Shown here one piece after another: positions 27,628 to 33,381 of a DNA stretch of 33,556 bases. The notes under the pieces were generated by a model. It searched no databases. It saw nothing but the letters and a program-made list of their open reading frames with translations, and was not told where the DNA came from. The position numbers were made by a program, and so were the translations under genes. Location: contig JAUMUE010000019.1 of NCBI GenBank assembly GCA_030530845.1, positions 1-33,556 of the forward strand, in the 5' to 3' direction. Numbering within the stretch: position 1 is the stretch's first letter; each line of letters begins with the position of its first letter. This stretch comes from Limosilactobacillus sp. Its GTDB lineage: Bacteria; Bacillota; Bacilli; Lactobacillales; Lactobacillaceae.

Positions 27628-28875
27628 TTAAGACGCCTTTTCGTCCTTCATCACAAATTTTGGTTCGGCGTGATCAGTGACACAGCGCTTACCGATGACA
27701 ACTTTTTCAACATCATCACGGCTAGGCAGTTCGAACATCACGTCTTCCATAACTTCTTCTATGATGGAACGAAGACCACGCGCACCGGTATTCCGAGCGA
27801 TCGCCAACTTGGCCATTTCATTCAATGCGCCATCCGTAAAGCTCAACTCACTACCGTCAAGGCGGATCAATTCAGAATATTGCTTAACAAGGGCATTCTT
27901 AGGTTCCGTCAAGATGCGTACCAGGTCATGTTCATCAAGCTTTTCTAACGCTGTCATGACTGGCAAACGTCCGATGAATTCTGGGATCAAACCAAATTTC
28001 AGCAAGTCTTCTGGAATCACGTGTTGAAGGATGTTCTTTTCGTTGATCTCTGCGCGTTCTGCGGAGTTGGTACCAAAACCAATCGTCTTTTCACCAATCC
28101 GTTCCTTCACGATATTTTCGATCCCATCGAAGGCACCACCAACGATGAACAAGATGTTGCTGGTGTCGACTTGGATGAATTCTTGTTGTGGGTGCTTACG
28201 ACCTCCTTGAGGCGGAACGTTAGCAATTGTCCCTTCCAAGATCTTCAAAAGTGCTTGTTGAACACCTTCACCGGAGACGTCACGCGTGATTGAGACGTTT
28301 TCACTCTTCTTCGCGATCTTATCAATTTCGTCGATGTAAATAATACCCTTTTCAGCACGTTCAACATCGAAATCAGCCGCTTGGAGCAACTTCAAAATGA
28401 TGTTTTCAACGTCTTCACCAACGTATCCTGCTTCAGTCAAAGTAGTTGCGTCAGCGATCGCAAATGGTACGTTTAAAATCCGTGCTAATGATTGAGCCAA
28501 GTAAGTCTTACCTGAACCCGTTGGACCGATCACAGCGATGTTACTCTTTTGGAGCTCAGTATCGTTGTTATCACCGGTCATCATGGAATTAACACGCTTG
28601 TAGTGGTTGTAGACCGCAACGGCCAGAGTCTTCTTGGCTGCGCTTTGGCCGATTACATAGTCGTCTAATTCTCCCACGATTTCTGATGGGTTTGGGACGC
28701 GGAAAGTATTCTTTGCGTTATCTTCCGCCAATTCTTGCTTAATGATCTGTTGGCACAAATCAACACATTCATTACAGATATAAACGCCTGGTCCAGCTAC
28801 AATCTTTAATACTTCATCCTCGGACTTACCGCAGAATGAGCAATGAGCTATATTTCCACTGGTATCTTCAAACAT
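27628..28875 (-). CDS. clpX: ATP-dependent Clp protease ATP-binding subunit ClpX
   Basis: AAA+ unfoldase that feeds proteins to ClpP. The 415-residue protein begins with the C4 zinc domain (C12, C15, C34, C37) for adaptor and substrate contact. It then has Walker A GPTGSGKT at 117-124, Walker [11 protein letters not shown], the pore-loop GYVG motif, and the IGF loop (KTIGFGTN) that docks on ClpP. ATG at 28875 follows AGGAGG. The usual partner upstream is tig; here the LTA-synthase-like gene lies between them. A separate promoter is likely because a terminator closes the upstream gene. Confidence 0.98.
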
Positions 28876-28905
28876 TTATAAACCTCCTCTAAAGCCTATG
28901 AAATA

Positions 28906-28914
28906 ATAATACCA
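28906..28914 (-). promoter_or_regulatory. Possible extended -10 promoter of clpX
   Basis: TGGTATTAT on the minus strand (28914-28906) is an extended -10 element, about 30 bases before the clpX start. No good -35 is seen; nearby TTGATA is not at a regular distance. A short TTCGT/ACGAA inverted repeat lies just upstream. Confidence 0.4.
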
Positions 28915-28943
28915 AATTTCGTTATCAAATACGAACCAAAAGT

Positions 28944-28985
28944 CTCTAAAGTAAAACGACCCAGGAGGCTTTTCCCCTGGGTCGT
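28944..28985 (-). terminator. Terminator after the LTA-synthase-like gene
   Basis: Minus-strand ACGACCCAGG (28985-28976) pairs perfectly with 28965-28956, ten-base loop, followed by TTTTACTTTAGAG. It starts about ten bases after the stop codon. Confidence 0.88.
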
Positions 28986-28995
28986 ATACGTGATT

Positions 28996-31971
28996 TTACT
29001 TGAGTTTACCGTAGAAATTAGTGTTTTTGAGTGCGTATGATTTACCGACGTTCATGTCATATTGAACCAGCTCGTAATCATGGAGCAGCTCTTTTTGTTC
29101 AGGCGTCAAGGTCTTTTGATCCACCTTCTTACCAGTTTCATGGTCAATCAGTTCAAACCCTTTTCCACCGTCATAATTAATTGTAATTGCAGGCAACTTC
29201 TTATGTACCTCAGTCAAGAGCGCCTGGTATGCAGTCACCTTGCTGTCAGTTTGTTCCAACATCATTGGGATGAATTCAGACGTGTTGACGTAGTTGTAAT
29301 TAGTGTCGAGTTTGGTCTTGGCACCGTGTTCACGCGCGTACTTATTGGAGTAAATGAAGTAGCGGGTGGAGTGGAGTCTGATTGGATATTTGTAAATCAG
29401 GTCAGAGTTCAAAATTCCAGGATAGTGATCACCGTAGAAAACAATCGTAATCGGCTTATCAATATTGTCGATATGGTTAATAAACTTCTTTACGGCTTTA
29501 TCGGTGTATTCAGTTCCCTTCACGTACGTCGCAAATGAAGTACGAACTTCGTCATTGTCTAGGTATTTCCCAAATACCTTGCCCTTGTACTCATTATGCT
29601 TGTACCAATTATTGTAAGGCATGTGATTCTGAATCGACAGCAAGCTGATAAATTGACCACCCTTGCGCGAATCAATTTGGTGCAAAGCATTGTAGTACAG
29701 TGTGAAGTCAGAATCGTTTGGATTATCATCAATCTTCTTTTGATCGTAAATCTTGTACTTAGATCCAAAGTAAGCAAATTTATTAAAGCTGAATCTTTGA
29801 TAATCTTCAATTCTAGAATAGAAAGTACCGTCAAATGGATGAATGGCTGACTTATATTTGAAGTTCATACCAATCGTTGGGAAGAAAGGATGGTATGGAA
29901 CAACTTGAGTATACGCAACTAATGTTGGTATTGACATCAACCCAAGTGTAAATCCTGTCAAACCTTGGAATTCCATATTTGCGGTATCCCCACCATATCC
30001 AGTGGAAAGCATCTTTCCGTACGTAGATCTGTTTTGCATTGACCGAATAAATGGAATTGGATCGTGACCCTTGATCTTAACACCAGGAGCCATGTATGGA
30101 TCAATAAATGATTCACTTAAATTAAAGATCACAGTTTGATCACTGACATTCATTTTACGTTCTGCGTTAATGTTATTAGCAACCTTTTGATACTTATTAC
30201 TAATTTTCTCAATTGAAGATTCACTGTAGTTTTCTGGCTCTTTCATTGCGTTGATATCAATAAAATCCAAAATGTTTAAGATAGGACCAGATGTTTGTAA
30301 TCCAGTGACAGGATTATGAAATCCATAGTCACCATTATCAAAAGCAAGGTTCGCATTATAGATAAAAGTCCCCTCATGGTTGAACCATCTTGGAGTAATA
30401 AATAAACAAACACTTAGAATTAACCAAATGAAACTACGCTTAAAACCAACAGAATAGTCTAGGTTAGTTTTTCTCTCCAATACTATTAATGCAAAGCTAA
30501 GAACGATAACCACTATTAAAGCATAGATCCAAATTTGCTTATCTAGCATATGTGCCAAAGAATTCCAATTTACTAATTCGTTGAAATCAGCAGGGTAAAT
30601 TGGCTCACCACGATAAGTCAATTTAATCCTATTTGCAACTGACCAAGCTATAACGATAATGCTTGTTAATATATTCGAAGTCCAATATCTCCTTACAATA
30701 AAATATGCAATATTGAACAATGCATAAATAAACAAAGTGGTAAAGATGATAGTAAAAAATTGATGTGAAAGAAAATATATCAAAACATCAGGAGTTTGTC
30801 CAAACCCGAAGTTGATTTTGCCTTTGTTCGAAACTATAAAGATTGAGGCCCAAGATAATAAGTAAAACCATACCCAAGTACACAATACAACCCTATGTTT
30901 TTGGATAAATGATCCTACTTTGGCCCAGAAATATTCTACAAAATTGGTAAAACTACTAGGTTGATCGAATCCATCAATAATCTGGCTGATTCCCTTGCTT
31001 TTAGATGTTAAATAAACAAACAAGTATGATAATCCCCAGATAACACCTTCTAATATTACAGCAATTAATAATCGATTGATTGTAATTGAATGTGTAAAAG
31101 AAATCGGTTGGAATATATTCCCGAAAATTGGTGACTGCCAACACACGGCAGATGTTAGCATGATTTGTAATAATACCGGTTTAAGTTCCTTTATATACTT
31201 TTCAAAAATAGCAAAAATACTTGCAGACACCGTCAAGATTAGAGGTGAAGTTAAGCTTGAGAAAAGTAATGGATTCCAATTAGTTTGAACCTGTTGATAT
31301 AGCTGGGGTCCTAGTACCCCCCCCTCATTTATCAGAGTAAACGAGGCAACTGCTACTAGCACTGCAACTAATTTTTTCTTAAGGGTAAAACTAAATCTAC
31401 TAAGTAACATCCCCCAAGCAAAATACAAAACTAAATATACGCTAGTTAATGTATTTGTTACATCAAACATTCCAGCTGATGAAATAAAACTAAATAACGT
31501 TAATGTTACAAGCACAGTAAACGATTGCCTAATAGTAACCTTATCCATGCTTTTCTTGATTATAGGTTGAAGAATTATACTTATGATTACAGCAGAAAAT
31601 ATGCTAGAAGTACCGGTTAAGATTGGAAAAACAATTCCAAACATGCTCCACATCCGAAAATTTTTACCCTGTTGGTACATATAAAATGGGTAGAAAAATA
31701 ACAGACAAAATTCAGTAACAATCCAATATTTTACTGCTTCTCCATATTTAATGTCTTTTCTTCCATAAACCGCCCCAAAAACAATCATTGCTAAAACAAA
31801 AGTAAGTGTTTTAGCATTAGTTGGTAAATACCTTAAACTAACATGAGAACTCATATTCAGGTATGCTTGGAAGTCAAATCGTTGTATTAAAACAACCAAG
31901 GAAGCTATCGCAGTGACAACAAATGGCATCACCTTGGATATCTTACTGATTAATGTTTTATTTCTCAACAT
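28996..31971 (-). CDS. LTA-synthase-like phosphoglycerol transferase with extra N-terminal membrane domain
   Basis: A 991-residue membrane enzyme. The C-terminal half is of the LtaS/sulfatase family: about five helices (360-525), the RGEPIYPADF loop at 454-463, then an outer catalytic domain (about 610-930) with E620 (LSESF), T663 (GGDTANMEF, the position of the LtaS catalytic threonine), H783 (QNHMPY) and D848-H849 (YGDHYPG). These residues suggest it moves glycerol phosphate from phosphatidylglycerol to a surface polymer. The first 345 residues form about ten further helices. PILTGTSSIFSAVI at 116-129 and YFAWGMLLSRFS at 183-194 recall acyltransferase-3 proteins, but no N-terminal Arg/His catalytic pair is seen, so this is tentative. 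Base composition is AT-rich, and a G8 run lies at residues 216-219. ATG at 31971 follows GGAG. Function of the fusion is inferred. Confidence 0.82.
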   Translation of the reverse strand: MLRNKTLISKISKVMPFVVTAIASLVVLIQRFDFQAYLNMSSHVSLRYLPTNAKTLTFVLAMIVFGAVYGRKDIKYGEAVKYWIVTEFCLLFFYPFYMYQQGKNFRMWSMFGIVFPILTGTSSIFSAVIISIILQPIIKKSMDKVTIRQSFTVLVTLTLFSFISSAGMFDVTNTLTSVYLVLYFAWGMLLSRFSFTLKKKLVAVLVAVASFTLINEGGVLGPQLYQQVQTNWNPLLFSSLTSPLILTVSASIFAIFEKYIKELKPVLLQIMLTSAVCWQSPIFGNIFQPISFTHSITINRLLIAVILEGVIWGLSYLFVYLTSKSKGISQIIDGFDQPSSFTNFVEYFWAKVGSFIQKHRVVLCTWVWFYLLSWASIFIVSNKGKINFGFGQTPDVLIYFLSHQFFTIIFTTLFIYALFNIAYFIVRRYWTSNILTSIIVIAWSVANRIKLTYRGEPIYPADFNELVNWNSLAHMLDKQIWIYALIVVIVLSFALIVLERKTNLDYSVGFKRSFIWLILSVCLFITPRWFNHEGTFIYNANLAFDNGDYGFHNPVTGLQTSGPILNILDFIDINAMKEPENYSESSIEKISNKYQKVANNINAERKMNVSDQTVIFNLSESFIDPYMAPGVKIKGHDPIPFIRSMQNRSTYGKMLSTGYGGDTANMEFQGLTGFTLGLMSIPTLVAYTQVVPYHPFFPTIGMNFKYKSAIHPFDGTFYSRIEDYQRFSFNKFAYFGSKYKIYDQKKIDDNPNDSDFTLYYNALHQIDSRKGGQFISLLSIQNHMPYNNWYKHNEYKGKVFGKYLDNDEVRTSFATYVKGTEYTDKAVKKFINHIDNIDKPITIVFYGDHYPGILNSDLIYKYPIRLHSTRYFIYSNKYAREHGAKTKLDTNYNYVNTSEFIPMMLEQTDSKVTAYQALLTEVHKKLPAITINYDGGKGFELIDHETGKKVDQKTLTPEQKELLHDYELVQYDMNVGKSYALKNTNFYGKLK
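31317..31324 (-). repeat. Coding-strand G8 homopolymer
   Basis: Eight consecutive C on the plus strand, G on the coding strand, spanning codons for E216-G-G-V219 of the LTA-synthase-like protein. It is the longest G or C run I see in the window. Loss of one G gives a TAG two codons later; gain of one gives a TAA about a dozen codons later. Confidence 0.9.
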
Positions 31972-32004
31972 AAATGCTTACTCCTAATTATTATTTCAAT
32001 AAGC

Positions 32005-32049
32005 AACGCCCGAGCACTCTGCATACTAGTTACAGAGTACCCGGGCGTT
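32005..32049 (-). terminator. Long hairpin between tig and the LTA-synthase-like gene
   Basis: Arms 32005-32021 and 32033-32049 form 17 consecutive pairs (two G-T on the minus strand) around an 11-base loop. The tail on the minus strand is only moderately T-rich (GCTTATTG), so it could be a tig terminator or a leader structure of the downstream gene, whose start is 33 bases away. Confidence 0.65.
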
Positions 32050-32082
32050 TGCCGTTTGATAATTACTTATCTATTTTAGATC

Positions 32083-33381
32083 TTACTTGTCAGCCTTAAC
32101 TTGCTTTGCTGAGTCAGCAACCATGTCAACGGCCTTCTTGATCTTGATATCGTGAGCCAACATGTCCTTAGTCAATGCCTTAGCAACAGCATCTTCGTCC
32201 ATGCCGTATTGACCTGCCAAGTCCTTGATTTCAGCCTTGATTTCGTCATCAGTAGCTTCGATCTTAGCTTCGTCAACGATAGCTTGGAGTACCAAGTTAG
32301 TCTTAACACGTTGTTCAGCATCAGCAGCAAATTGCTTCTTCAAATCATCTTGAGTAGTACCAGTGATTTGGAAGTACATTTGTGGGTTGATACCTTGTTG
32401 TTGCATACCACCGAGGTATTGTTGCATTTGACGGTTAATATCTTCGTCCAACATTGATTGTGGAATAGCTTGAATGTCTGCGTTTGCAACTGCCTTTTCG
32501 ATAGCAGCGTCTTCAATAGCAGCCTTAGCTTGGTCTTCCTTTTGTTCTTCGAGTTGCTTGCGAACCTTGTCCTTCAAAGCGTCGAGAGTTTCAACGTCTT
32601 CGTCAACGTCCTTAGCGAATTCGTCGTTCAATTCAGGAAGTTGCTTTTCCTTGATTTCGTGAACAGTTACCTTGAAGAGTGCTTCCTTACCTGCGAGGTT
32701 GTCAGCGTGGTAATCTTCTGGGAAAGTAACCTTAACGTCCACGTCGTCACCAGAGTTTGCACCAATTAATTGGTCTTCGAAACCTGGGATGAATGAACCT
32801 GAACCTAATTCAAGTGAGTAGTTGTCAGCTGAACCACCGGCAAATTCTTCACCATCGATGCTACCCTTGTAGTCGATTACGACAGTGTCGCCATTAGCGG
32901 CTGGCTTACCTTCCTTAAGAACCAATTCAGCTTGTTGTTGACGCTTCTTTTCGATTTCAGCATCAACATCAGCGTCAGAAACAGTGGTGTCTTGAGCAGG
33001 AACTTCCATACCCTTGTATTCACCAAGCTTAACTTCTGGTTCAACATCAACTTCAGCAGTAATAGTCCAAGGTTGACCCTTTTCCATGCTCTTAATGTCG
33101 ATTTGTGGTTGAGCAACTGGCTTGATACCAGCTTCTTCAACAGCAGCGCTGTAGGCTTCTGGCAATACCTTGTTTAAAGCATCTTGGTATAATGCTTCTT
33201 CACCGTACATTTGGTCAAAGATTTGACGAGGTACACGGCCCTTACGGAAACCTGGTACGGTAATCTTCTTACGAGTTTCGGCGAATGCTTCGTCGATTCC
33301 CTTGTTAATAGTTTCAACATCAATGTCAAAGGTTAAAGTGCCTTTGCTGGCTTCGCTATCGCGTTCCCATTTTGCTGACAT
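32083..33381 (-). CDS. tig: Trigger factor
   Basis: Ribosome-bound chaperone and peptidyl-prolyl isomerase. Starting at ATG 33381 (GGAGG seven bases upstream) it has 432 residues, the usual length. The ribosome-docking signature GFRKGRVP is at 44-51. The FKBP-type isomerase domain covers about 160-245 with DTVVIDYKGSIDGEEFAGG, and the long helical C-terminal chaperone arms fill the rest. An upstream frame extension to 33414 overlaps the ribosome site and is rejected. It is normally followed by clpX; here another gene intervenes. The EF-Tu gene often precedes tig in lactobacilli and may lie just outside the window. Confidence 0.98.
   Translation of the reverse strand: MSAKWERDSEASKGTLTFDIDVETINKGIDEAFAETRKKITVPGFRKGRVPRQIFDQMYGEEALYQDALNKVLPEAYSAAVEEAGIKPVAQPQIDIKSMEKGQPWTITAEVDVEPEVKLGEYKGMEVPAQDTTVSDADVDAEIEKKRQQQAELVLKEGKPAANGDTVVIDYKGSIDGEEFAGGSADNYSLELGSGSFIPGFEDQLIGANSGDDVDVKVTFPEDYHADNLAGKEALFKVTVHEIKEKQLPELNDEFAKDVDEDVETLDALKDKVRKQLEEQKEDQAKAAIEDAAIEKAVANADIQAIPQSMLDEDINRQMQQYLGGMQQQGINPQMYFQITGTTQDDLKKQFAADAEQRVKTNLVLQAIVDEAKIEATDDEIKAEIKDLAGQYGMDEDAVAKALTKDMLAHDIKIKKAVDMVADSAKQVKADK

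Follow-up and report, generated by a model that had tools for sequence, protein, structure and literature searches.

Does a run of eight guanines in the coding sequence of a cell-wall enzyme act as an on-off switch, or has chance simply placed it there? The question arises in the window, the whole analysed stretch of 33,556 nucleotides from a Limosilactobacillus genome, which holds a gene of 991 codons on the minus strand (28996..31971). As the earlier note had it, eight G occupy codons 216-219 on that strand, within GAG GGG GGG GTA; the plus strand reads eight C at 31317..31324, and this is the only run of eight in the whole window. The reading frame of the 991-residue ORF is intact at the run in this assembly. 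The predictions that loss of one G would bring a stop after E-G-G-Y, and gain of one a TAA about a dozen codons on, were both borne out in silico: seven G give a product of 219 residues ending EGGY, and nine give 230 residues, GGG GGG being followed by 12 further codons and then TAA. Ten G give 220 residues, eight give 991 and eleven give 992, so that on paper a change in tract length turns the gene off, as expected of a contingency locus built on a simple repeat. A compensated double frameshift around the tract, looked for by eye only, found no support.

The guess that the gene codes for a surface-polymer enzyme proved right, since homology identifies the product as a GacH-type glycerol-phosphate transferase. 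Residues 612-909 (29245..30138, minus strand) form a sulfatase-type catalytic domain by Pfam (Sulfatase PF00884, E 1.3e-26), PDB homology and alignment; a search of NCBIfam with the 991-residue protein gave no match. With phmmer the best PDB matches were to GacH of Streptococcus pyogenes (5wcx/6dgm, E 1.3e-60; 5u9z, E 4.2e-60), followed by the lipoteichoic acid primase 4uop at E 6e-9, and the homology to the extracellular catalytic domain of GacH spans residues 575-987. Residues E620, T663, D848 and H849 are invariant across 22 aligned sequences. T663 aligns with the threonine of the GacH motif YGGGTANMEF, which we take to be T530, the residue mutated in work on GacH, and the other three presumably serve as metal ligands, as in work on LtaS and GacH. 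The N-terminus of GacH is a multi-pass membrane region, and the N-terminal part of the window protein (residues 11-526; 30394..31941, minus strand) has ten hydropathy peaks on the Kyte-Doolittle scale, the only evidence used for it. The run of eight G sits just after the fourth of these peaks (residues 196-214), and both slipped products would therefore lack the catalytic domain. A homolog on a plasmid of L. crispatus, 46.7% identical, adjoins genes annotated as LCP family protein and glycerol-3-phosphate acyltransferase, neighbours in keeping with work on a wall polymer. The product of the window gene would probably decorate the cell wall with glycerol-phosphate, a putative activity that we read from this homology.

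In S. pyogenes, GacH is reported to add glycerol-phosphate to the wall polysaccharide known as the group A carbohydrate, and deletion of gacH to raise resistance to lysozyme, histones and the phospholipase hGIIA (PMC8807736). The window gene resembles it in its homologous catalytic domain and, by hydropathy, in its membrane N-terminus, and differs in carrying the run of eight G and in standing alone, without a polysaccharide cluster anywhere in the window, between an upstream gene (32083..33381, minus strand) and a downstream gene (27628..28875, minus strand). We take these two ORFs, named from their sequences, to be tig (trigger factor) and clpX. A terminator-like hairpin of 12 pairs followed by a T-rich tail (28956..28985, minus strand) separates the gene from clpX; three terminator-like sites were found in 28700-32200, against 1.7 expected in shuffles. 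Among the 29 loci compared, drawn from 46 congeners with tig, tig and clpX adjoin in 28 with 19-292 bases between them, and the one remaining has no clpX within its 1.5-kb flank. In 600-base windows the G+C content of the gene is 31-41%, against 42-47% in the flanks. The closest whole-gene homologs, 46-48% identical, come from another genus of the same family, and the best segment in Lactobacillus records is up to 57% identical; within the same genus, the matches that extend over nearly the whole gene are 31-35% identical. On this evidence the A+T-rich gene was probably acquired and inserted between tig and clpX.

The stronger of the two competing explanations, although an unlikely one in our estimate, is that drift made GAG GGG GGG GTA in a loop of this acquired gene, where slippage would be at its basal level and off variants either purged or neutral. 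In its favour, when the window was shuffled 100 times with its dinucleotides preserved, 32 of the shuffles held at least one G8/C8 match. Shuffles that preserve codons are less accommodating, with 0.07 G8 runs expected over the 21 window ORFs of at least 200 codons and 0.007 in the GacH-type gene itself, and the latter figure counts against chance. Taken by itself, the run exceeds chance only weakly at the level of the window and is unusual for its gene; eight G is also short for a switch.

The assembly, of 1.42 Mb in 47 contigs, has three G/C runs of at least eight in all (six overlapping matches). One is a G11 in a gene for a YkuD protein, of L,D-transpeptidase type, at C9:76370-76380 (L189:3001-3011), where a start resembling a signal peptide and the YkuD domain are in different frames. 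As assembled, the secreted form appears to be off; against this, a 220-codon ORF that has no signal-like start crosses the G11 in the YkuD frame. Another is a G8 at C10:32013-32020 (L248:3001-3008), which precedes the ATG of an HTH/TPR regulator gene by a dozen bases and lies close to the expected position of a ribosome-binding site.

Homologs of the window gene were found in 36 of 50 Limosilactobacillus genomes, at 50 loci that correspond to 49 distinct genes (L026 and L082 are the same gene), and all 49 were examined. Seven of them, the window gene (G000) included, have a coding-strand G run of 8-9; C runs of at least seven were absent from the ORFs counted. The tract lies at codon 216 in the window gene, near query residue 507 in G001, G010, G043 and G048 and, again in query numbering, at about 123 in G003 and about 173 in G019. 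Judged by position and relatedness, the seven genes apparently represent four lineages with tracts at different sites. At the shared site, the G048 homolog has nine G, and 506 upstream and 475 downstream codons are open in different frames that meet at the run; G010, G043 and G001 have eight G in frame. These three genes are respectively 96.7%, 95.6% and 89% identical to that of G048 and differ from it by 5, 5 and 15 bases in the 200 flanking the tract. Tract length thus differs between homologs at one site, G8 against a frame-broken G9, a difference between species and not within a clone, and the tract occupies one site in four genomes with genes 88-99% identical to each other. In G019 the two halves of the gene lie in different frames at a run of eight, and in both G048 and G019 the half on each side of the run is open over more than 170 codons. 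Frames are broken elsewhere too: in G028 where no long run is present, and in G007 by an in-frame stop, a break without poly-G.

Some comparisons speak for drift. The sister genomes G003 and G027 encode the same peptide, LGGV, with a tract in G003 that is interrupted by GGA and CTA in G027, as drift through synonymous codons would give. The position of the tract in the window gene is not shared with congeners, which align poorly there, and the EGG loop is not conserved in homologs. Outside the genus, where the absence of tracts counts for switching in Limosilactobacillus, no G or C run of at least seven was present in 28 loci of the family (155 of 397 genomes had a match), nor in 44 further homolog loci, 34 of Lactobacillus type and ten from Bifidobacteriaceae. 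A tract conserved at one site throughout the family was accordingly rejected, most of the 34 Lactobacillus-type loci showing a loop like GVPGFNAVYW and none of them a tract. Plasmids were searched at the nucleotide level for strain variants of three tract loci: the first gave no match, the second, with an intergenic tract, gave matches, and the third matched over about 120 bases at a single end; at the protein level, 16 plasmid records held a homolog, all below 60% identity. The homolog on the L. fermentum DR9 plasmid lies in several frame pieces and has no G or C run of at least seven.

The recurrence of tracts in this gene family can be set against the genus as a whole. A census of 50 genomes, whose rounded sizes sum to about 91 Mb, returned 60 runs of at least nine and 93 of exactly eight, 153 in total, of which 0.25 would be expected in GacH-type genes by their share of length. 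Correction for codon make-up per base raises the expectation to 0.72, against seven genes observed (Poisson P 1.1e-5); counted by lineage, with at least four lineages, the same correction leaves a modest excess (P 0.006). Codon shuffles within the 49 genes are kinder to chance, with 3.7 runs of at least eight expected against seven observed, and 7.2 of at least seven against 11, so glycine-rich sequence and codon use explain part of the excess. Against chance stand 246 comparison genes taken from 20 stretches of 20 kb, chosen arbitrarily and including one in the genome of the window: these contain no G run of at least eight where 2.5 were expected, and one of at least seven where 11.1 were expected. 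Such runs are therefore generally avoided, and the GacH-type family is an exception. This avoidance, together with recurrence in the family and two frame breaks exactly at the run, weighs against drift as the whole explanation.

Long runs elsewhere in the genus were surveyed for their ORF context (26 runs, namely 25 of at least nine and the G8 at C10 of the window's own genome). Nine genes are clearly broken, both halves being open in different frames. Three of these are adhesins of KxYKxGKxW or YSIRK type with Muc_B2 or Rib domains by Pfam (L196, L198, L233), and a fourth has a signal-like start by eye (L218). Two more, a DNA methyltransferase with G11 (L200:3002-3012) and an MmeI-like enzyme with G10 (L228:3002-3011), are candidates for switchable methylation in Limosilactobacillus. 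The remainder are a ROK gene (L223), L209 and the GacH homolog (L245). Two further genes are in frame through the run, a levansucrase with a KxYKxGKxW signal (L193) and an adhesin (L244). In L196, L233 and L326, which have a KxYKxGKxW-type signal by Pfam, a G8-G9 run lies in or just past the signal and the frame is broken; L271, with such a signal by eye, has a run in the same place and is in frame.

A second survey covered 82 G8/C8 runs in 80 loci out of the 93 runs of exactly eight, leaving out six G8 in GacH genes, the C10 G8 and four others. Coding-like context was found for 56 of the 82, and not for the other 26. Surface genes are among the hosts of G8 (L271, L283, L326, L332), as are three ORFs with the run in frame (L296, L273, L298) that we take to be housekeeping genes like truA, recD and ftsW; these in-frame runs again favour chance. 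Nine of the 82 runs lie between open pieces of at least 30 codons in different frames, non-surface cases among them being L286 (genome G009), L280 (transporter-like, G008) and L318 (G030). Assembly error or decay at G8/C8 runs thus does occur, and is probably what broke L286, presumably the gene for methionyl-tRNA formyltransferase (fmt). The G8 runs are a mixed set that includes housekeeping and non-surface genes, and a G8 alone is therefore not diagnostic; where a single allele is broken, assembly error has to be reckoned with.

That the broken homologs of G048 and G019 are decaying pseudogenes or homopolymer miscalls, uninformative on switching, is nevertheless improbable: the genomes are mostly draft, the three non-surface genes are broken in the same way and the L. 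fermentum plasmid homolog is in pieces with no such run at all, but the open halves on each side of the run in G048 and G019 are long, and the nine broken long-run genes include three adhesins, L218, two DNA-modification genes and the GacH homolog.

We therefore return to slipped-strand switching, for which the seven tract-bearing homologs among 49, the frame breaks of G048 and G019 exactly at the run and the avoidance of such runs elsewhere are the grounds. It is likely that GacH-type genes of Limosilactobacillus are switched by poly-G slippage, and we put at about 0.6 the probability that the run in the window gene is itself a slipped-strand contingency site, of a kind already known in other genes. 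The switching that the earlier note had proposed is accordingly supported for the gene family within the genus. The position of the tract is not common to relatives, one sister pair has a tract that synonymous drift could make, and codon make-up accounts for part of the family excess. With eight G, the GacH-type enzyme would be made, a protein that spans the membrane several times and would transfer, by its outer domain, glycerol-phosphate from a lipid to a wall polysaccharide. If replication added or dropped one G, translation would end within the membrane part, before any catalytic domain, and the reverse slip would restore the enzyme, so that cells would switch their wall glycerol-phosphate decoration, and hence their surface charge, on and off. 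The enzyme activity, the slippage rate at eight G, the reversibility and the benefit to the cell are parts of this explanation that we infer.

A close parallel is in Bifidobacterium breve UCC2003, where a poly-G switch of sortase-dependent pili is reported, mixed tract lengths having been measured by maximum depth sequencing (PMC9187656). Both cases involve a gut commensal with a G run inside the reading frame of a gene for a surface structure, and tract length in the pilus genes decides translation into a second ORF much as it would decide on or off in the window gene; unlike the pili, the window gene is known from one assembled allele, and its target is a wall-polymer enzyme. In Gardnerella, homopolymer runs of at least eight are proposed to vary by slipped-strand mispairing, as a run of that length is here, but a median of 20 G/C tracts per genome is given and colony variants were compared (PMC11287997), whereas the present assembly has three G/C runs. 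Orsi et al. present poly-A/T tracts as a general mechanism (PMC2831843). In the open-licence literature, by title and the start of the abstract, no report of a poly-G switch in a lactobacillus was found; in two of the papers found with lactobacillus terms, 'phase variable' refers to Bacteroides capsules and E. coli fimbriae. The combination of GacH, glycerol phosphate and phase variation likewise found no paper in that literature.

A broader proposal, which we offer tentatively and at somewhat less than even odds, is that Limosilactobacillus has a repertoire of poly-G contingency genes, comprising mucin-binding adhesins, levansucrase, DNA methyltransferases, a YkuD enzyme and GacH-type wall transferases, and that poly-G switches arose afresh in the GacH-type gene on several independent occasions, in different codons, which would amount to convergent switchable wall decoration in gut commensals. 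Wall glycerol-phosphate gives the surface negative charge. If slippage does switch it in lactobacilli, the cells of a clonal probiotic culture would differ in surface chemistry, with consequences for results on adhesion, phage and host defence, and selection by the host for on or off cells would be directly measurable.
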